Positions 20,493-32,648 of a stretch of DNA of 64,000 bases are shown in pieces. The translations under genes and the position numbers were made by a program. How positions within the stretch are numbered: the stretch's first letter is position 1; every line of letters begins with the position of its first letter. The DNA comes from Spiroplasma clarkii. GTDB taxonomy: Bacteria; Bacillota_I; Bacilli_A; Mycoplasmatales; Mycoplasmataceae. Below the pieces are notes generated by a model. That model saw only the letters and a program-made list of their open reading frames with translations. It was not told where the DNA came from and did not search any database. The stretch lies in NCBI RefSeq assembly GCF_002795265.1, contig NZ_CP024870.1, positions 930,001 through 994,000 of the forward strand, read 5' to 3'.

Positions 20493-22472
20493 TTATAAAG
20501 ATTGCAAGTTTTTAAAATATTCCTTTAAATCTTGAATATCATTATTGATGTCATCAATTGAAACACTCAATGGATATTGAAGGGGTATTACAGTGCTATT
20601 GTAATGCACTGAATGATTCAAAAAAACCTTTTTAGACATTAAGTATTTTCTACTAAGTTTTTTTGACAATTTCACTTTCAAGTTACCATTTTTTTCAAAA
20701 ATTATATTGATCTTTTCGTTAAAAGTGTAACAATTTATGAATTCACTTTTTACCTCTTCATTGGAAATCAAAGAATATATTTTTGATTCTATTCATGCTC
20801 TTAAACTAGAAAGTAGAACTACTTTTTTAATGGTATTTGAGAAAAAATCCTCATTATTCAATTCAATATAATTTTCAATTAAGTCTATTAGTTTTTCTGA
20901 ATTTATATAATATTTAGAATTGTTTAATTCATTTATTTTTTCATCAATTGTATAGTGAAATATTTTATGTATATTATCTAATTCGTTAAAACTTGGATTC
21001 TCTTTTTTTATTAATGCACTCAATGCATTATAATAATCACCTTTGACACACTTCTCCTTTAAAGAATCTAATGATAATATGTGCTCATTTAAATCCTTGG
21101 TATCAATATCTTTTATTGAAGTAACCCCTTTAAACTTCTCAAGATATTTATAGACAAACATACCTTTATATTGTGAATTTACTATATTTATTACATCTAT
21201 TGAGTGGGTAAATAAAATAATAGTCTTTTTATCTTGAGCACATGCCAATATTATTTCATAAATTATTTTATAACAATTAACTAAATCAAAACTTGAAATT
21301 GGATCATCAAAAACTCCTATTTTGATGTTACTACCTTTAAATAAATGAAGTCTATATAAAAAGTGTATCAAGTTAATCTCACCAGTGCTATGCTTTTCAA
21401 CCTATCTATTTAGCACAATCTCAATTTCATATGAAAAAGAGTTGAAATTTATATTTCTTTTATCAATCTTTAAATATGAACTGAAATTATGAATAAATTC
21501 AGTTTTGTTTTTACTTAGAATTTCAAATTTACTTTTTGATTCATCTATCAATTTATCAAGTTTTCTTTTTGCCTTATTTATTTTTTTTGAATTATCACAT
21601 ATAAATTTAAGTTTTTCTAAGTTGCATTCAGAAATAGCTAGACCAATCAGCAAGTCTTCTCTATTTTTTAAATATAGATATAATTCATAAAACTTTTTAA
21701 AAGATTCTTCACTAAAAATTACTGATTTATTTTTAAATAGCTCAAAAATTTTAGATTTTCCTACATTAAATTCCTTAGTTTTGGTGGCAAGCATTTCCCT
21801 AAGACTTTCTAACTGAGTACTACAAATTGGACAAGTTTTATCATCCAATTCTGATTTTAATAAAATTTCAAATGAGTATCCTATAATTGAGTTTCTTATT
21901 TTTTTAGATTCTGAATCTTTTAATTCAATTTCTTTAAATAATTTTCATACATAATAATTTAATAGTTGACGTATAACTTCTAGATTAGATTCACTGTTTA
22001 TGTACTCTAGGTCTTCTTTTGGGATTTCATAATCAAAAAACAACTCATCTTTTCAGTAACTGCTAATTCTTTCACTTATCACATCTGTATTTTCTTTAGA
22101 AGAGTGACCCACCACTCTTATAAGATTAGTGTTTATTTGATTTTCTCTTTTTAACAATTCAATCTCTTCTTCTTTTTCATCAATTTTAAGGGTATTATAT
22201 TTTATGATAAGTTCTTTATTTCTTCTATATTTTCTTATTTTTTTTCAATCATCAGTATTTTTAAAATCTTCAATCTCATCTGTTTGATCGAAATAGAAAA
22301 CAGCATTATTGTTTTGTTTAATAAATTTAGAGATGCTTGATTTACCAGCACCATTACAACCAAAAATTATTTGATTTTTATCAAGTAACTTAAAGTCATT
22401 ATCTAATAAATTTTTCAAATATGAAAATTTTTTATCATTATCTAAAATCATTTCTCTTTCAAAAAGTATCAT
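20493..22472 (-). pseudogene. AAA ATPase (AAA_13-like) interrupted by in-frame TAG
   Basis: A 659-codon frame related to the ATPase at 6954-9557: Walker A 'FGCNGAGKSS' near residue 40, 'CPICSTQLE' as a zinc-hook-like CxxC, Walker B 'IGVFDDPISSFD', 'LFTHSIDV', and a C-terminal 'LNHSVHYNS' block. Codon 357 (21402-21404) is TAG, just before 'VEKHSTGEINL' in the ABC-signature region, so the ATPase is split. The frame is open on both sides. Truncation before Walker B should abolish ATP hydrolysis; reinitiation at a downstream start cannot be excluded. It lies downstream of the OLD nuclease gene on the same strand. Confidence 0.85.
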
Positions 22473-22719: not shown

Positions 22720-24696
22720 TTAACTTTCCCTTGTAATTAAAGAGAAGACTTTTTCAAAGTTTTTTCTTGTTTTCTCGTCAACTTTAATATTTTCATTTTC
22801 AACTGCATTTTTAAATTGAACTGCATTATTAAATTTTTTACTATCCAATTTAAATTTTTCTCTCATTTCTTTTGAAAATAAATCTTCGATGTCTTTAAAA
22901 GTACTTCCAGCCTCTTTTAGTGAATAACACTTAATATCTTTTTCTTTTGCTTTAGAGGCAAATTCACTTCCAGCCTCATCTCCATCAACTAGACAAACTG
23001 GATTTTTCATAATATTAGATAATTCACTTAAAATTTTTTCAGGACCTGCTACTCCTTGAAACGGTAAAAAATAAACATTGTCTTGATTTAGTAGTTTTTT
23101 AAAAGCTGTCAGATAACAATAATCTGTGATTCCTTCTACAAAAATTATTGTATTTTCTGGATTAAATATTACATGTTTTTGAACTGTTAGGGCATCTAAA
23201 ATATTTTTTGTAACATTTGAATCTGAACTATCAAACTCATCTACAGTAAATCTATTGATAATATCTAGTGAGTTTTTGTTTTGTTTTATAATTCTTAATT
23301 CATCAAGATGATCATTACTGATCATAAATGGTGAGTGTGTCGCAATTACAATTGTAACTTCATTATCAAGTGCAAATTTTTTTAAAAATTTTCTTAACTC
23401 AACACATCCTTGGGGGTGAAGTTTTGAACCAGCTTCATCAATTAGAATAATATCCCCTTTTTTGATATTGTTAGTTATCAGAAAATCAAAATAAAAACTA
23501 AAAAATCACTTAAAGCCCTCAGACTGTCTTGCAAGACTAATAACTTCATTATCACTTGTTATTGCAAAACTAAATTTGCTTTCTGAAACTTCAATTGAAA
23601 ACTTATATTTTGATTTATTTTTATTATAAATTGCATTAAAATCTTTTGAAACTTCAATTAGTTTTTCATTTATTTCAGCTTCAAGTTTTCTTAATGACCC
23701 TGGGTAGCTGCCACTTTTTTCCTTTTCATATATACTGTTTATTTTGTCTTTATCTATTTTAAATTTATCAAGAATAATGTTTTTAAAAAAAATATTAAAA
23801 CAATTTGTTGGCAAAATATCATTATCAATTCTAGAAGTAAGATTATTTATATTAAAATTTGGCTCAATAAATTCATAAACTTTTGGTACTATATTAAAAC
23901 CATATTTTTCAGTAAATATATTTGATATATGGACATCTGCTGATATTAAGTTCGCAAACATTTTCCTTATTGAAATATACTCGTCTCCAATTATATGCTC
24001 ATCAGATGAATCTACTTTTTCTTTAATTCACTGATATTTGCCCGATTTCACTAAATATAGATATGCCTCATATGTAGTTGGCACTGCAGTTGACATTTCA
24101 CCCTTTAAATCAAACATCACATTATCATTTTCATCAATATGCAAAATGTATTTATTAAAATCACTTATGTTCTGAAAAAAACTAATTGCATTTTGTGCAT
24201 TAATAATTAATTGTGAAATATTTCTGCCATATTGGTAATCATGATTTCTATTTTCATGACTTAATTCTTCTAAGTAATGGTTCAAAATTAATATTCCAAA
24301 TTCTATAATTTTTTCAACTAATTGTGGAACGGTTATTTTTGTTTCAATATTTTCCCCATTTAAATTATGTTCATAATAATTAGTTTTTTCATTTATAAAA
24401 TAAGAACATTTATATTTATTTTCATTATAAACAAGACATATTTCTGGCTCAGCTTTGTCATATTCATAAAATGAAGGTTTATCAAGTTTAGTTGATAGAG
24501 TGGCTTGATTTAAAGAATTTAAACTTCTAAGAATGTTTGATTTCCCTACATTATTTGGACCAATCAATACAACTAGCTCTCCAAGATTTCTAATTGAGGT
24601 GTTTAAAATTAACTTTACTTTTTTCTCATCTTTAGTGTCACTAACATCTATTGCAATGTTTCTATATTGCTTATATTTTAAATATCTTTCTGACAT
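22720..24696 (-). CDS. OLD-family ATP-dependent endonuclease (AAA + TOPRIM)
   Basis: A 658-aa protein: N-terminal ATPase with Walker A 'GPNNVGKSN' (46-54), Walker B 'IILIDEAGSKLHPQG', 'IATHSPFMI' H-loop, and C-terminal TOPRIM nuclease with 'IIFVEGITDYCY' (catalytic Glu) and 'VCLVDGDEAG' (DxD-like). Two TGA-Trp codons. ATG 24696 has GAGGAGG upstream. OLD proteins are anti-phage nucleases; in Gabija (GajA) they pair with a UvrD-like helicase, but none is adjacent here, so it looks like a stand-alone (class 1) type. A 248-base gap separates it from the broken AAA ATPase downstream. Confidence 0.9.
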
Positions 24697-25137
24697 TTTT
24701 TTCCTCCTCTTAAAATTTTTTATTAATAACTTATTTATCAAACCTCTTAATGTATTAGGTTATTTTACTATTCATAATGAATTTTAATAATTCATTCTTT
24801 TTAAAAAATATTCAGTTGTAATATTTTAGGGGCCTAATCAGAAGTTCAATAAATTCTGTAATTCTAGATAAAATTTATTAAGTTTTACTATTAAACTCAT
24901 GTAATCTAATTTAAAGAGTTTAGCTACATAAATCCAGTCAAGTCTTAATACATAATAAATATAAAAAAGAAATATCAAAATTTTACTATATTTTTAACTT
25001 GTTGGCCTCCACAAATATAGTATATTGCTTTTTTTATAAAAAATATAGAATAATTTATAAAAATACTAAAATAATAGTTCCTTACTTAAAAATAGCATCA
25101 AATGCGATTTTGTTAGACACTTTGATTAAAAACAAAA
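24697..25137 (-). other. Intergenic gap, no gene recognised
   Basis: A stretch of about 440 bases, AT-rich. A 63-codon plus-strand frame at 24999-25190 has no ribosome site and runs across the csn2 terminator, so I do not count it as a gene. The stretch should hold the OLD gene promoter. Confidence 0.4.
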
Positions 25138-25198: not shown

Positions 25199-26386
25199 TT
25201 AAAATACTAAGTCAATCAAATTTTTTAACTTCTGAGTTTTTACATTAAATGTGACTTTAAGGTTTAATTTTAATTCTATGATCATCATCAAGATTATGCA
25301 AATATTCTTTGCATTAAGATGGAATGTTAAGTCATTTGTTGTGTTAACTTCTCAAAAGAAATTTAAAGCTTCATCTTCATTAATAACAATATTTTTATAA
25401 ATAAAACACTTATACAAAATATTTTCATAGTACTTTTGAAACTTTTGCCCCTCAATTTTTAAATCATCAACTGTTAAAACTTTATTTAAATCAAATTTAA
25501 ACTGATCTAAATTTGAGTATTTACTTTCTAAAAATGCTGAAAAAATAGTGATGTTTTTTACATAATTTTTATAATTTACAACAAAGTTAATTTTATCTTT
25601 TTCAAAGAAATTGACTGATTGAATATTTGGATTTAACAACCTTAAACTATGAGAATTGTTAATAGTAACAATTCAAGCAATTTGATTTTGAGCAAATAAC
25701 TTAATTCAGTTTCTTAATTTACTAATACTTAAATCATCAGCACAACTTTCTGGTAAATCCAGTAAAATTATTACTGGTCTTAAGGTATCACTTAAATCAA
25801 CATCATTTAAAATAATTTTTAATAATAACATTCTCACTAAAAACTTACTGTAGTTTTTCTCTTCAACAGTTCTGTTGTCTTCATTGTAGATATTTAACTT
25901 AACTAATTTTTCTAAAATAACTTCAACTGAATTTAACTGTAATTCTGTTTTAAAATCAATTTTCCCAACAATCTCATCTAACAAGTGGTTTTCAGCAAAG
26001 TACTCTTCAACTGCTGATGCAAGATTTTTTGAAATATCACTTAGTTGTTGATCAAAATTATTAATGACCTTTTCTTCATAGATTTTTTTATTTAAATATT
26101 TTAAAATGCTATCTTTTAAAAATCCAGTTTTTGAAAACTTTAATTCTGAACTAAGTTCAAAAACTTCTTTTAAATAAATCACTTGAAAATCACTGGCTCC
26201 ATTTTCAAACAAATCAAAACTTAAACCACTTGTTTTACCTGACTTTGTGTTTAAAACTTTTGAAAGCTCATTTAATAATAAACTTTTTTTACTATCATTT
26301 GGTCCATACAAAACTGCTAACTTATTGAAAAATGAAATTTTAACTTTGCCAAAATACTTACTATTAAGTGATAAATAATTTCTCAT
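25199..26386 (-). CDS. csn2: Csn2-like CRISPR adaptation protein
   Basis: A 395-aa protein placed directly after cas2 (3-base gap), the csn2 position in type II-A loci. Csn2 forms a ring on DNA ends and supports spacer acquisition with Cas1-Cas2-Cas9. The N-terminus 'KLAVLYGPNDSKKSLLLNEL' looks like a P-loop (28-35) in which the usual GxxGxGKS is altered to GPNDSKKS; Csn2 proteins are known for degenerate P-loops. 'RPVIILLDLPESCADD' is a Walker B-like strand. It is clearly longer than the ~220-aa streptococcal Csn2, so I assign it from position and P-loop, not from close identity. Confidence 0.8.
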
Positions 26387-26388
26387 TT

Positions 26389-26724
26389 TTATAACTCCAC
26401 CAAATAATCAATATTTTGGTAACTTTCTTGGATTGACTTTTGACCAACTAAAATTTTTATATCATTGTACTGTTTTTCTGTAATCGCTAGCATTCTCACA
26501 TCTCCAATTTTTGGTTTATTTTTTTCAATTTTCTTTTGAGTTATTAAAACAATATCATGGTTCATGCAGAGTTTTACATAAATTGAAAACTGCATCATAT
26601 AAAATCCATTTTGAATTAAAAATTTTCTAAATTTAGTGTATTCTTTGTTTTCACTTTTGGTAGTATTTGGTAAATCATAAAAAACCATTAATCTCATCTG
26701 GCGATACCTACTCTTCTGTCTCAT
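26389..26724 (-). CDS. cas2: CRISPR-associated endonuclease Cas2
   Basis: A 111-aa Cas2 starting 'MRQKSRYRQMRLMVFYDLPN', with the Asp of the first beta strand ('VFYDLP') conserved. ATG 26724 is chosen over an upstream TTG; it overlaps the cas1 end by 17 bases. Cas2 joins Cas1 to integrate new spacers. Confidence 0.95.
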   Translation of the reverse strand: MRQKSRYRQMRLMVFYDLPNTTKSENKEYTKFRKFLIQNGFYMMQFSIYVKLCMNHDIVLITQKKIEKNKPKIGDVRMLAITEKQYNDIKILVGQKSIQESYQNIDYLVEL

Positions 26725-27646
26725 CAAGACTACTTCTTTCTTCAAATTGGACAATTGTTGGTAACTTCAATTTTGTTAAACTTGCAGTTTTCAAATAAGT
26801 ATAATAACTCTTAACCACTATTTCAATAGCATTAGTCACTGTGTGGATTTTTTCATCAATAACTACACTTTGATTTAAAAGATTAATTAGTTCCAAGCGA
26901 TGTTGATAATGTAAAGTTTCATTTGCAAGTAAGCTCTCAATATTGGTGCTAACCCATAAATCAACCATTGGTCGAAATGGTTCTACCAAGTCATATGATA
27001 AGTTTCAGTTATTGGTTTTACCTTTGTGAAAAATTCCCAAAAAACAATGCAGTCCATATTTTACTAAAGTTCTAGAAATAGCTGATGCTAAAATTGTGTA
27101 ACCATAATTTAAAGCTGCATTAATAATGTCTTCACTAAATCTCAAAAAACTACTTCCATAAAGTTCTCTAAAAAACACCTTAGCAGCTAAGGCTTCACGA
27201 TTTGAAGCATCATTTAGTTTAACTGTATTAAAAAAGTTTGACATCATTGTCAATGATCTTTGTGAACAGCCCAGCATCCCCATCACATTAATTGAGTTTT
27301 CAATTTTCTTTTCCACAACCAACTTTCAGAGTTGCTCTTTTTGATAGTTTTGCAATTTAATTTGATTTTCAAAAATTGTTAATGGTTTTCAGTGATTGTG
27401 AAAGGACATTATTAAACCATTGGGTTCATACTTATCATCACAAATTATTAAATAAACATTGTTTTCAACAAGTTTAGATAAAACTTGTGTTGTTAAAGTA
27501 GTGTAATTATTTTCTAAAACAACACAATTTAAGTCATTCATTGCAAAATAAAGTTCCTTCTTTGCTTTTAGGTTTGTCACCATTAACAAGCCATTTTTTA
27601 GAGAAAGTTTGTCATAATTAGTAATTAATAATGTCTTCCATGACAT
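26708..27646 (-). CDS. cas1: CRISPR-associated integrase Cas1
   Basis: A 312-aa type II Cas1 starting 'MSWKTLLITNYDKLSLKNG', with two TGA-Trp codons. The C-terminal helical domain contains 'NAALNYGYTILASAISRTLVKYGLHCFLGIFH' pieces (metal-binding Glu region before and His in 'GLHCFLGIFH') and 'DLVEPFRPMVDLWV' (Glu/Asp of the active site). It is first of the cas1-cas2-csn2 block and lies downstream of the array; about 150 bases between array and cas1 can hold a promoter. Confidence 0.95.
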
Positions 27647-27796
27647 TTAAGTACCTTCTTTCATTTAAATTACTTAGGTTTTCACCTATTTACACTATAA
27701 CAAAAAAAAATAAACTTATAAGTTTATTTCTAAAATCTTGATTACTGGTTTTAATTTAAAGTAAATTGTTTATTGATCTCTAGTAATTAAAATTTT

Positions 27797-28824
27797 GTCG
27801 TCTATTTGTTAGATATGTCAGATAACTAAAACAAATAGTTAGAAAGGAGAAACTACAATGGAGCGCCTATTCCTTAGATATGTCAGATAACTAAAACTGA
27901 GCGACTAAGCTGGAAGTTGAGGATGGATGTCGCCTATTCCTTAGATATGTCAGATAACTAAAACTTGTAGTAAACTCCTCATATTCGACCATGAGTCGCC
28001 TATTCCTTAGATATGTCAGATAACTAAAACTCTTTTCTCGGTTATATGGCCCTAAGGCCAGTCGCCTATTCCTTAGATATGTCAGATAACTAAAACGGAC
28101 TTGACCCATCACTTCGCTTAAACTCAGTCGCCTATTCCTTAGATATGTCAGATAACTAAAACTGCACTTGTGTTTAATGCAAGTTTTAATGAGTCGCCTA
28201 TTCCTTAGATATGTCAGATAACTAAAACTTTGCTGAAATTTGGATTTTTGATTTTAAAGGTCGCCTATTCCTTAGATATGTCAGATAACTAAAACGCAAT
28301 TATGAACAAGGTGAGGGAGTGTATGGTCGCCTATTCCTTAGATATGTCAGATAACTAAAACGATGGTAAGGAAGATTTTTATAGATCATCAGTCGCCTAT
28401 TCCTTAGATATGTCAGATAACTAAAACTAGACTTAACAGGTACCTTTGGTAGTTTAAAGTCGCCTATTCCTTAGATATGTCAGATAACTAAAACCTTTCT
28501 ATAATAGTCTAGTACAAACTCAGCGTCGCCTATTCCTTAGATATGTCAGATAACTAAAACATGAATGAAGTATGATTAACTACTTAAGTGGTCGCCTATT
28601 CCTTAGATATGTCAGATAACTAAAACTTCTTTTCTTTTCTCGGAAATGGTGCCTTAGTCGCCTATTCCTTAGATATGTCAGATAACTAAAACTCCTGGCA
28701 AATTGAGCAGACAAAGCATTTAGTCGCCTATTCCTTAGATATGTCAGATAACTAAAACGCACTTGAGCACAATTGAATTTGATAAAACGTCGCCTATTCC
28801 TTAGATATGTCAGATAACTAAAAC
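27797..28824 (-). CRISPR. Type II-A CRISPR array, 16 repeats and 15 spacers
   Basis: Sixteen 36-base repeats separated by 15 spacers of 29-31 bases (mostly 30). On the plus strand each repeat begins GTCGCCTATTCCTTAGAT and ends AGATAACTAAAAC; on the transcribed minus strand it starts GTTTTAGTTATCTGACAT, as usual in type II. The repeat at 27797-27832 is degenerate (GTCGTCTATTTG) and marks the leader-distal end; the one at 27862 has two changed bases. The leader-proximal repeat (28789-28824) is only 9 bases from the cas9 stop codon, so there is no room for a normal leader. Orientation follows from pairing with the tracrRNA anti-repeat. Confidence 0.98.
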
Positions 28825-28833
28825 CTTAAAATC

Positions 28834-31800
28834 TTAGTCTATCAATGAATAACCAAGGATGCTAATATTTAGAATTGAAATTTGATTAGATAATTGAGAT
28901 GTTGTAGCTCGAAAATTTTGTTCTTTAAAAATTTCTTTGTTTTTATTTTCATCAGATATAAAAGTTGTATTTATCTTGTGAACATAGCTAGTATCTCCCT
29001 TTTTTCCTCTCAATACTTTATACTCAATTTCACTATGTTTATTGATATATGAAAATGTGGTATTTTTAACAAGCAAAACTTCACCACCCTTAAGACTTAA
29101 GATACTTTTATCTTTAAAAATATCAACTTTTTTAACTCACTGTGGCTTTGCCTTTTGCTCTAATTTATTCAACTTCAGGCCATAATAAATAGTACTCTCT
29201 CAAATATCACCATTTTTACTTGTAAAGTATTTTTCACTATTAAATTTACCTGTTTTTTTGTCAATTGCTACATTTTTTCCTTTAATCAATTGGCTATCTG
29301 TAACTGCACCTTTTAATTTTTTATTGATTTTGTAAGAAACAAAAGGATAATGTTTGAATCCCTGAATATTAGCGTCGTCTAATGTTTTTAAATATTCTTT
29401 TGGATCTTTAACTTTTACAAACTTTGGCACCTTAGTTTTAACTTTCCTTTTAAATTCAGTTAATCCATTAAAGATTTCATAGCGCTTGGTTTCTTTAATT
29501 TTTCTCTTAATTTGTTTTTCATCTAGTTTTTCAGTTTCTTCAATTGATTCTATAGTGAGTTCAACAGGCATTCTTAATTCAATAACTTCTTTAAGATTTT
29601 TTACAAGTGCATACATACCTGTCTGTTTGCAACCTGAATTAATATAATTTTCAAGTCTTTCTAAAGCATTTGGTATTTCATGGTACCAGATATACCCATT
29701 CTCTTTTCTTCATTTACTAAATACTGCTGTTTTTCGCTCGTTTCATTGTTCATCAGTAATTATTTTTTTATTTCAACTCCTAAATTCATCGCCTAAAATA
29801 AGTAAGTCTGAGGCAAAATCAATTGATCCTTGATTTTTAAACTGAGCTAAAACAATTGCATCAACTGCATGATGGTATGGAGTAATATCTCTAACTTTTG
29901 TGTCTAATCCTCATGGTGAATTAAATAACCATTTTCTTCTAAATCTTGATGTGACAATTCCCTTTATCATCAAGACATTTGATTTATATTCTTTGCCTTC
30001 GTTTGCATATTTAAAAGTTAATTGTTGTTTCAATCAATTTGCAAAATACCTTGCAATATATGAATTGTCAACTAGGTTTCGTTTAGCAAAATCAGTTTCA
30101 ATTTTCATAACAGATTCGACCATTAGATTTTCATACTTGTTTCAATTAATTTTGTTTTTTCGATATAAATTTAAGCAATTTTTTTTGAAGTTGCTAACTA
30201 CACCTGGATTGTCAGCATTCAAGTATTCCAGAGGTGTCCTATTTTTTTTCTTCTGATTTTCACTATTAAAAACCAAGACTTTGTTTTCAATTGAATCATC
30301 TGGAAACTTTGAAATTGGTAAAATATGATCAATCTCCAACTCATATGTATCAAATTGCTCCAATAAAATTGTTTCTAATGAATACATACACTTTTCATCT
30401 TGTGATTTTCAAAGCTTATATTTTAAAATATTGGTATGATTTGCCCTTAGTCCATTGTCTTCTAAAATTTTTGAAATCCCCATATTATTAAGTCTATTTT
30501 CAAGGTTACGAGTATTCAATTCTTTTCTAACTTCTGCAGATTTCCCCAACTCTCTTGATGTTTCCACATTGATTTTGTGAAAGTCTCCATATCTATTAAA
30601 GAGTGCTTTAATAACTTTTCTAGCCTCATTAATTGCTCTAAAAACAACAGGGTTTCTCACTAAATCAGGGTCTTTAATTGGTTCTAAAAATCTACCTGGT
30701 TTTGCCAAGGTTTGTTCTACTGCATTTGCTTTCATTTCATCTTGATAAACACCAGCAATTTTACCTTCCAAGAATTTTTCAATAACTTCAAGCATTGCTT
30801 TTTTTGACAACCCACTTGTTGTGGTTACTTTTGCAGGTAGGAAAAGTAATTCATTTACTTGTTCATTATCAATTTCTAGATTATTATTTTTTGCTCAATC
30901 TCTAATTTTCTCTTCTCTTCTTTTTGGGGTAATGTTTTGATTCAATAGTATTCCCAAATCATCAATAAAATTTTTATCCAAGGTAGTTGAGTCAATTTTT
31001 TTAAGTATTTCCATTCCAAAAACCTTAATAAAACGCTTGGTAAACTCAAATAGTGTAGTCTTTTTAGCATTTTCAATTGCCTTAGAGTTTTTAACTTCTT
31101 CTTTTTCAACTTTAAAATCTTCAATTAATATTTTATCAATTGCTTTACTACTACCAGTAATGAATTTATCATCTTTAAGTGCTTTTTCAAATAATTTGTT
31201 GTGAAATTCACAAATTTTCTCTTCAGTTTCTAAAAGAGAAGAAAATTTAGAAACCTCAACAGCCATCTGATAAATTTCAAAGATAATACTTGATTTAACA
31301 TATCTACTCTCATCTGGATAAAATGTACATTTACCTGTTAATTCAGTAAATGGCTTATACAATTTATATGCTTTCAAACTATCTCTCAGTGCTAAGAAAT
31401 TTCTATCCTTAACATTTTTTGCTTTCATAATTGCTAATTGATCTTGAATTTTTTTCTTGATTTGATCTCTTGTATAACCTTTTGGACCAAAACCATCCTC
31501 AAAATCCCTTTGTCTAAAAGCAGTTTCAATAATTTTTTTAATAAATTCACTTGTAATTTCTGGGAAATATTTTGCCTGTTGATTTAAAATCATTTCTAAT
31601 TCATATTGATAGGCTTCCCTAGGGAACAAGAATTTGAAATCACCACTCTTTGTCCCTTCACCACTTTTCTTGTCTTTAACATTATTTCTTACATCTAAAA
31701 GATTATCATTGTTTTTTACCCGAGTATTGCCAAACTCATTTGCAATTATCGCTTCTGCAATGGTTTTTTGACATTTTTTAGTTTTTAGATCATAACCAAT

Positions 31801-32358
31801 CATTTTTCTAGCCTCAAAAATTGAGTTTGTATAACTGTCATCTTCTTTAACTTTTGATTGGTCAGTTAAAGTTGAGACATCCTCACCTTTGTTAACATCA
31901 AATAGATTTGCAAAACCTCTATTTTTTGCAATATGAGTAACAACTATTACCAATTGCTCTTTGCTTAATGGTTGGGTCAATGCCCTATTCCTTAACACAT
32001 ATGGATTAAAAAATAAGTTTTCATCATAATCCACCTTATTAGTGGGTTTTAACTTAGAATTTTTAAAATCAAAAACCCCATTATTAATTTCTTCAACACT
32101 AATAATTCCATACTCTTCAAAAGTCTTTTTAATTAACTTTATTCTAGCTTTTTTTCTTCTGTTTAATCTTCTTGAACTTCGAAGCATCCTTCTCTCAGTA
32201 GCCAGAGATACTTTTGATTTTGGGTTTTCTGGAACTTCAAAAAGTCTCACTCCAAAATCATCAATTCATGGTTCATAACCACCTTCATCATCAAAAGTTG
32301 TCACAGCCCACCCGACAGAACTAATTCCCAAGTCTAAACCAAGTATATGTTTCTTCAT
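28834..32358 (-). CDS. cas9: CRISPR-associated endonuclease Cas9, type II-A
   Basis: A 1174-aa Cas9, open throughout with many TGA-Trp codons. Catalytic residues are all present: RuvC-I 'ILGLDLGISSVGW' (Asp9), RuvC-II 'INVETSREL' (Glu599), HNH 'LEIDHILPIS' (His678, with Asn about 701), RuvC-III 'YHHAVDAIV' (Asp833). The arginine-rich bridge helix 'RRMLRSSRRLNRRKKARIKL' follows RuvC-I. It is shorter than S. pyogenes Cas9 (1368 aa). GGAGAAATTT precedes the ATG. The tracrRNA gene lies directly upstream on the same strand, and the array begins 9 bases after the stop. Confidence 0.98.
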
Positions 32359-32425
32359 AAATTTCTCCATTTTCTATCATTCTTAATGATTTTAACATAA
32401 ATTTTAGAAAATGGAGAAATTAAAC

Positions 32426-32515
32426 AAAAAAAAGAGCAGGTTTAGGGATGCTCAACCCTTCACTAAGAAGTTTATCTTAGTTTCTGACATATCTAAGCAA
32501 TAGACGACTGTTGCC
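32426..32515 (-). ncRNA. tracrRNA
   Basis: On the minus strand, bases complementary to the array repeat run from about 32508 to 32476 (GTCGTCTATTGCTTAGATAT onward, two mismatches then a bulge near the end). They are followed by small hairpins and a terminator GAGCA...TGCTC (32434-32453) with eight U residues. This anti-repeat plus terminator layout defines a type II tracrRNA; it guides RNase III processing and Cas9 loading. Its 3' end is about 70 bases upstream of cas9. The 5' end is estimated. Confidence 0.9.
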
Positions 32516-32648
32516 TGACAATTAAATGTTACCATAAATATTTTAAAAATCAATAGTTTTTAAAATATTTTAATTCAGGATCGTGTCAATTCTATATGAT
32601 AATGTCACATTTTAATTGGTTTAATAGCATCACTTACATCAATATGCT

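Follow-up and report, generated by a model that had tools for sequence, protein, structure and literature searches.

A compact type II-A CRISPR locus in Spiroplasma clarkii with the array 9 bp behind cas9

The genome of Spiroplasma clarkii (1.56 Mb, a single contig; a code-4 mollicute) encodes an intact type II-A locus on the minus strand of the window (the whole 64,000-nucleotide stretch analysed here), in the order tracrRNA – cas9 – 9 bp – array – cas1 – cas2 – long csn2. In the direction of transcription, the features are:

32526..32534, minus strand: extended -10 candidate of tracrRNA, TGG TAACAT (score 7.06)
32426..32519, minus strand: tracrRNA (anti-repeat, nexus, Rho-independent terminator)
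32389..32397, minus strand: extended -10 candidate of cas9, TGT TAAAAT (score 7.35)
28834..32370, minus strand: full-length cas9 (1178 aa, code 4), encoding RuvC and HNH domains
28836..28844, minus strand: extended -10-like TGA TAGACT, whose last T is also the T of the cas9 stop codon TAA
28825..28833, minus strand: 9-bp gap GATTTTAAG from cas9 stop to repeat 1, containing ATTTTAAG, a putative diverged leader-anchoring motif
27797..28824, minus strand: CRISPR array, 16 repeats and 15 spacers
27862..27897, minus strand: degenerate repeat 15 (2 mismatches)
27797..27832, minus strand: degenerate repeat 16, the most distal (3 mismatches), which retains A at repeat position 32
27702..27729, minus strand: A+T-rich hairpin followed by a T run, the likely terminator of a cas9–array unit
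27694..27702, minus strand: extended -10 candidate of cas1, TGT TATAGT (score 6.32)
26708..27646, minus strand: cas1 (type II)
26389..26754, minus strand: cas2
25199..26386, minus strand: csn2, long form, 395 aa (PADLOC Csn2, E 4.3e-45)

The protein families confirm that this is a type II-A locus: Cas9 matches TIGR01865 (E 5e-154) and has the HNH_4 and RuvC_III domains, Cas1 matches TIGR03639 (E 1e-79), PADLOC calls Cas1_II and Cas2_II, and the PADLOC match of Csn2 extends across 364 aa, with no Pfam or NCBIfam match to this protein. An RNase III gene is present in the genome, and there is no second array with the same repeat elsewhere in its 1.56 Mb. The cas9 stop codon TAA (28836-28834) is followed by GATTTTAAG (28833-28825) and then by repeat 1, GTTTTAGTTATCTGACATATCTAAGGAATAGGCGAC (28789-28824, minus strand), the first of a series of 36-nt repeats separated by spacers of 29-31 nt; the original prediction, which placed the first repeat 9 bases after the cas9 stop, was thus correct, as it was in placing the array between cas9 and cas1 and not after csn2. 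The usual order of type II-A loci, typical but not defining, is cas9-cas1-cas2-csn2-leader-array, from which the inner array of the window locus departs. The usual leader is about 100 bases long and carries a short tag that marks the insertion point of new spacers.

Several other features of the window were recorded. An inverted repeat (AATTTCTCCATTTTCT / AGAAAATGGAGAAATT, 32350-32431) spans the cas9 promoter candidate and the ribosome-binding site, and would hide the Shine-Dalgarno sequence in transcripts reading through from tracrRNA; it is absent from the related genome G124 (see below). Beyond csn2, 22720-24741 encodes an OLD/GajA-like AAA ATPase (673 aa, with a weak TOPRIM match), a possible second defence gene, and two adjacent ATPase-like ORFs at 20493-22472 (356 and 292 aa, without significant family match) may be one broken gene.

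Minus-strand transcription of the array, as originally proposed, is supported by the tracrRNA: its anti-repeat, on the minus strand, forms a duplex with the repeat (-47.5 kcal/mol), and the nexus and T-run terminator that follow it are found there and are absent from the plus strand. A degenerate repeat was originally taken to mark the far end of the array, and two such repeats (15 and 16, with 2 and 3 mismatches) lie at the cas1 end, where degenerate repeats also occur in two other species, G124 and Spiroplasma sp. JKS002669 (G031); 14 repeats of the window array are identical, right up to the cas9 end. At position 32 of the repeat, G124 has A, matched by U in the anti-repeat, and the window has G there in 15 of the 16 repeats, with A in the most distal repeat only; this pattern is accounted for by a change that spread through copying of the cas9-side repeat, whereas insertion at the cas1 end fails to explain it. 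The tracrRNA, the decay of the distal repeats and the spread of the repeat mutation all point to the cas9 end as the leader side, and the repeat pattern, read from one genome per species, speaks against insertion of new spacers at the low-coordinate end. When the spacers were compared with phages, the only hits were weak ones of 28 nt to Xanthomonas phages; no protospacer was identified, which left no PAM with which to test orientation. The sole match above noise within the genus, of spacer 15 to a chromosomal site around a ribosome-binding site, was taken as chance.

A search of 320 genomes of the order identified 13 with close Cas9s, including that of S. clarkii itself. The nearest Cas9 (58% identity) is that of G124, of the same genus, in which cas9 is followed after 6 bp by 56 repeats and then by cas1, cas2 and csn2; in JKS002669, cas9, 108 bp, 83 repeats and cas1 follow one another. 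These arrays hold 55 and 82 spacers, respectively, compared with 15 in the window. In three representatives of a different genus in the family, the order is cas9, tracrRNA, cas1, cas2, csn2, with the array, where present, after csn2. Inspection of about 36 Cas9 loci from the order showed a gap of less than 20 bp in the window and G124 alone, so that the 6-9 bp state is represented by two genomes only; where an array directly follows cas9 in the other loci, 32-202 bp lie between the two. The short gap shared with G124 and the 108-bp gap of JKS002669 indicate that the layout is no assembly accident. Despite the 58% identity of the Cas9s, 84 nt of the tracrRNA are identical between the window (32426-32509) and G124 (L039, 6247-6330). 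In two loci of another family (L045 and L048), the array begins 32-34 bp after cas9 with TATAAT near repeat 1, and in L048 with a hairpin in the gap; these gaps look like intermediate stages of leader compaction. The Cas9 tree leaves the position of JKS002669 unresolved, which makes shrinkage of the leader, as opposed to its growth, an argument from parsimony. Single-sequence scans of genome and viral contig collections for Cas9 relatives gave no match. Among the spacers of the related arrays, those of G124 include one exact tandem duplication and several near-identical spacers (sets 18/19, 16/38/48 and 28/49), as if one element had been sampled repeatedly, and spacers 17, 20, 39 and 63 of JKS002669 (L040) are C-rich and share GGGACCTTTTAC...CCCCCC or parts of it, which is unusual in an A+T-rich host.

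At the junction of G124, GTTTTAG of repeat 1 is directly preceded by TAATTTGAG, and the reading GCA TAA TTTGAG shows that an exact ATTTGAG has one A in common with the cas9 stop codon. ATTTGAG is the commonest leader end among type II-A systems (PMC5382924), and the last 10 bp of the leader are necessary and sufficient for the correct integration site in S. thermophilus (PMC6895254); in the window as well as in G124, an equivalent 10 bp would take in the end of the stop codon of cas9. The leader of JKS002669 ends in ATTTTGAG, from which ATTTTAAG of the window is a single change away, matching ATTTGAG at five of seven positions. In a junction scan of the collection for TTTNAG next to this repeat type (any base being allowed at the variable position), eight arrays from Bacilli MAGs were recovered besides JKS002669, all eight with ATTTGAG immediately before GTTTTAG. 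The exact motif in G124 has a chance probability of 1.5e-4 at the local base composition, and we consider its assignment there secure; a match of 5/7 or better, as in the window, has a probability of 0.028, which taken on its own is weak evidence. An anchoring motif in the window, perhaps weakened, is plausible, and spacer acquisition may be impaired. The description of the array as having no leader thus holds insofar as 9 bp leave no room for the usual leader, but not in the sense of a motif-free gap, since the 9 bp appear to contain an eroded copy of the motif that is intact in G124; the leader would be reduced to little beyond its integration tag. The anchoring sequence had also been suggested to lie within the cas9 coding sequence, and is instead placed by these comparisons in the gap and stop codon, outside the coding body.

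In gene content, the locus resembles type II-A Group 1 (PMC5382924), with cas9, cas1, cas2, a long csn2, tracrRNA, 36-nt GTTTTAG repeats, spacers of about 30 nt and a putative ATTTGAG-like motif beside repeat 1, and differs in its array between cas9 and cas1 and not after csn2, and in a leader of 6-9 bp and not about 100. Only the region downstream of csn2 was covered by that survey, which therefore could not find an inner array. JKS002669 (L040/L113) shares the order tracrRNA-cas9-array-cas1-cas2-csn2 on one strand, but its 108-bp leader contains a terminator hairpin and a promoter in addition to ATTTTGAG. The type II loci of other mollicutes belong likewise to code-4 hosts and have related Cas9s and repeats; their usual order is cas9, tracrRNA, cas1, cas2, array, and leaders go unmentioned (Ipoutcha et al., 2019; PMC6882279). 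An inner array by itself is not new, since arrays located between cas9 and csn2 have been described in M. hyosynoviae 232 and M. arthritidis (PMC8725752). Our literature search for leaderless arrays and for arrays co-transcribed with cas9 did not find the 6-9 bp layout described. We regard the locus as a compact variant within type II-A and not as a new kind of system.

How an array without the usual leader might be transcribed is best approached from JKS002669, in which a hairpin lies 3' of cas9 (z -4.0) and a TG-extended -10 (TGA TAAAAT) lies 9 bp before repeat 1; neither the window nor the G124 junction has intergenic room for such a terminator and promoter. Since no terminator separates cas9 from the array, the two are proposed to form one transcription unit, as the layout of the window also suggests, because it is from cas1 that the array is separated by a terminator-like hairpin and T run and then the TGT TATAGT candidate; in G124, no clear terminator was found 3' of the array. 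We infer that read-through from cas9, a mechanism open to both species, best explains transcription of the array, which makes co-transcription with cas9 the best supported of the three options originally put forward. According to the second option, cas9 would still contain the leader's promoter half, TGA TAGACT in the last codons and stop of the gene (28836-28844), and the array would have a transcript of its own, separate from that of cas9. This is a real possibility for the window, if a somewhat unlikely one: the hexamer ends 11 bp before repeat 1, within the 8-12 bp seen in six of nine loci with intergenic leaders on the same Cas9 branch; its score (6.63) is similar to those of the tracrRNA, cas9 and cas1 candidates (7.06, 7.35 and 6.32), all four having TG before the hexamer; and only 1.6% of 307 ORF ends equal it at that position. 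Read-through may thus perhaps be unneeded in the window. The hexamer fits at only four of six positions, however, and the scores come from a fixed -35/-10 model (an EM-trained model drifted to A/T runs and was dropped; the background consisted of 400-kb samples of the window genome and the G124 genome) that distinguishes poorly between upstream regions and ORF tails (AUC 0.65). Furthermore, G124, with 56 repeats and a shorter gap, has no counterpart to this site, its junction being equalled in score by 54% of ORF ends, and the two species show no conservation of this region. The original prediction had proposed comparing the last 60 bases of cas9 with relatives for non-coding conservation: over the 60 bp that precede repeat 1, the window and G124 share 43% identity, against 84/84 nt for tracrRNA, and an embedded, conserved leader would be expected to be kept like tracrRNA. 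Near the cas9 3' end, 33-44% of codons are identical compared with 59% gene-wide (about 15 informative codons in the last stretch), and no excess of synonymous conservation was found between these two genes; an Rfam scan gave nothing credible. A promoter in the cas9 3' end has modest support in the window and none in G124.

The remaining option, a weak promoter in each repeat that would make a leader unnecessary, is very improbable. Promoters within repeats are reported for type II-C systems, and the repeat here does contain CTGACA (5/6 of a -35). Unlike those systems, the window locus has csn2 and its repeat has no -10 (best in-repeat score -0.9); most repeat-spacer units score below ORF tails, and any match would depend on the spacer. 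A plus-strand array with its leader at the cas1 end is also very improbable, and the data already contradict it. As far as length goes, the cas1-side gap (27647-27796) could hold a leader, but it adjoins the degenerate repeats of the window and the related genomes, holds no anchoring motif and has a minus-strand terminator-like hairpin instead, and the tracrRNA terminator is likewise on the minus strand only. The array could also be a relic that lost its leader by deletion and no longer acquires or expresses spacers, with which the eroded motif and the smaller number of spacers relative to G124 and JKS002669 would be consistent; this is unlikely in view of the four intact cas genes and tracrRNA, the 14 identical repeats up to the cas9 end and the long array that G124 maintains on an equally short gap.

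The explanation we favour, and consider reasonably likely, is a compacted type II-A locus in which the leader has shrunk to an anchoring motif and the array is transcribed by read-through from cas9; on sequence evidence, this compact variant is probably working in S. clarkii. The ancestor would have had the array behind cas9 with a leader like that of JKS002669, comprising terminator, promoter and anchoring motif. This leader would then have shrunk in the lineage shared by the window and G124, leaving only the Cas1-Cas2 anchoring motif against the cas9 stop. New spacers would enter between the motif and repeat 1, which would explain why the cas9 stop stays 6-9 bp from the first repeat. The cas9 transcript would run on into the repeats, with which tracrRNA would pair, and RNase III would cut the guide RNAs from the 3' tail of the cas9 message; in the window only, read-through may be supplemented from a weak promoter that overlaps the end of cas9, and cas1-cas2-csn2 would be a separate unit. 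The direction of evolutionary change, read-through transcription and continuing acquisition are all inferred from the comparisons above. More tentatively, and on balance doubtfully, cas9 mRNA and pre-crRNA could be one obligate transcript with repeat 1 in the cas9 3' UTR and the integration signal overlapping the stop. A ribosome ending at the cas9 stop would then cover the start of repeat 1, and it is proposed that tracrRNA pairing and RNase III cutting would for this reason compete with Cas9 synthesis; if true, this would tie guide supply to Cas9 supply.

The compacted locus is a natural experiment on the function of a CRISPR leader, its promoter and integration parts having apparently been pulled apart and the integration tag kept. 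It predicts that leader surveys restricted to the region downstream of csn2 miss such loci, that about 10 bp would be enough for spacer acquisition in nature, and that read-through of cas9 can provide guide RNA.
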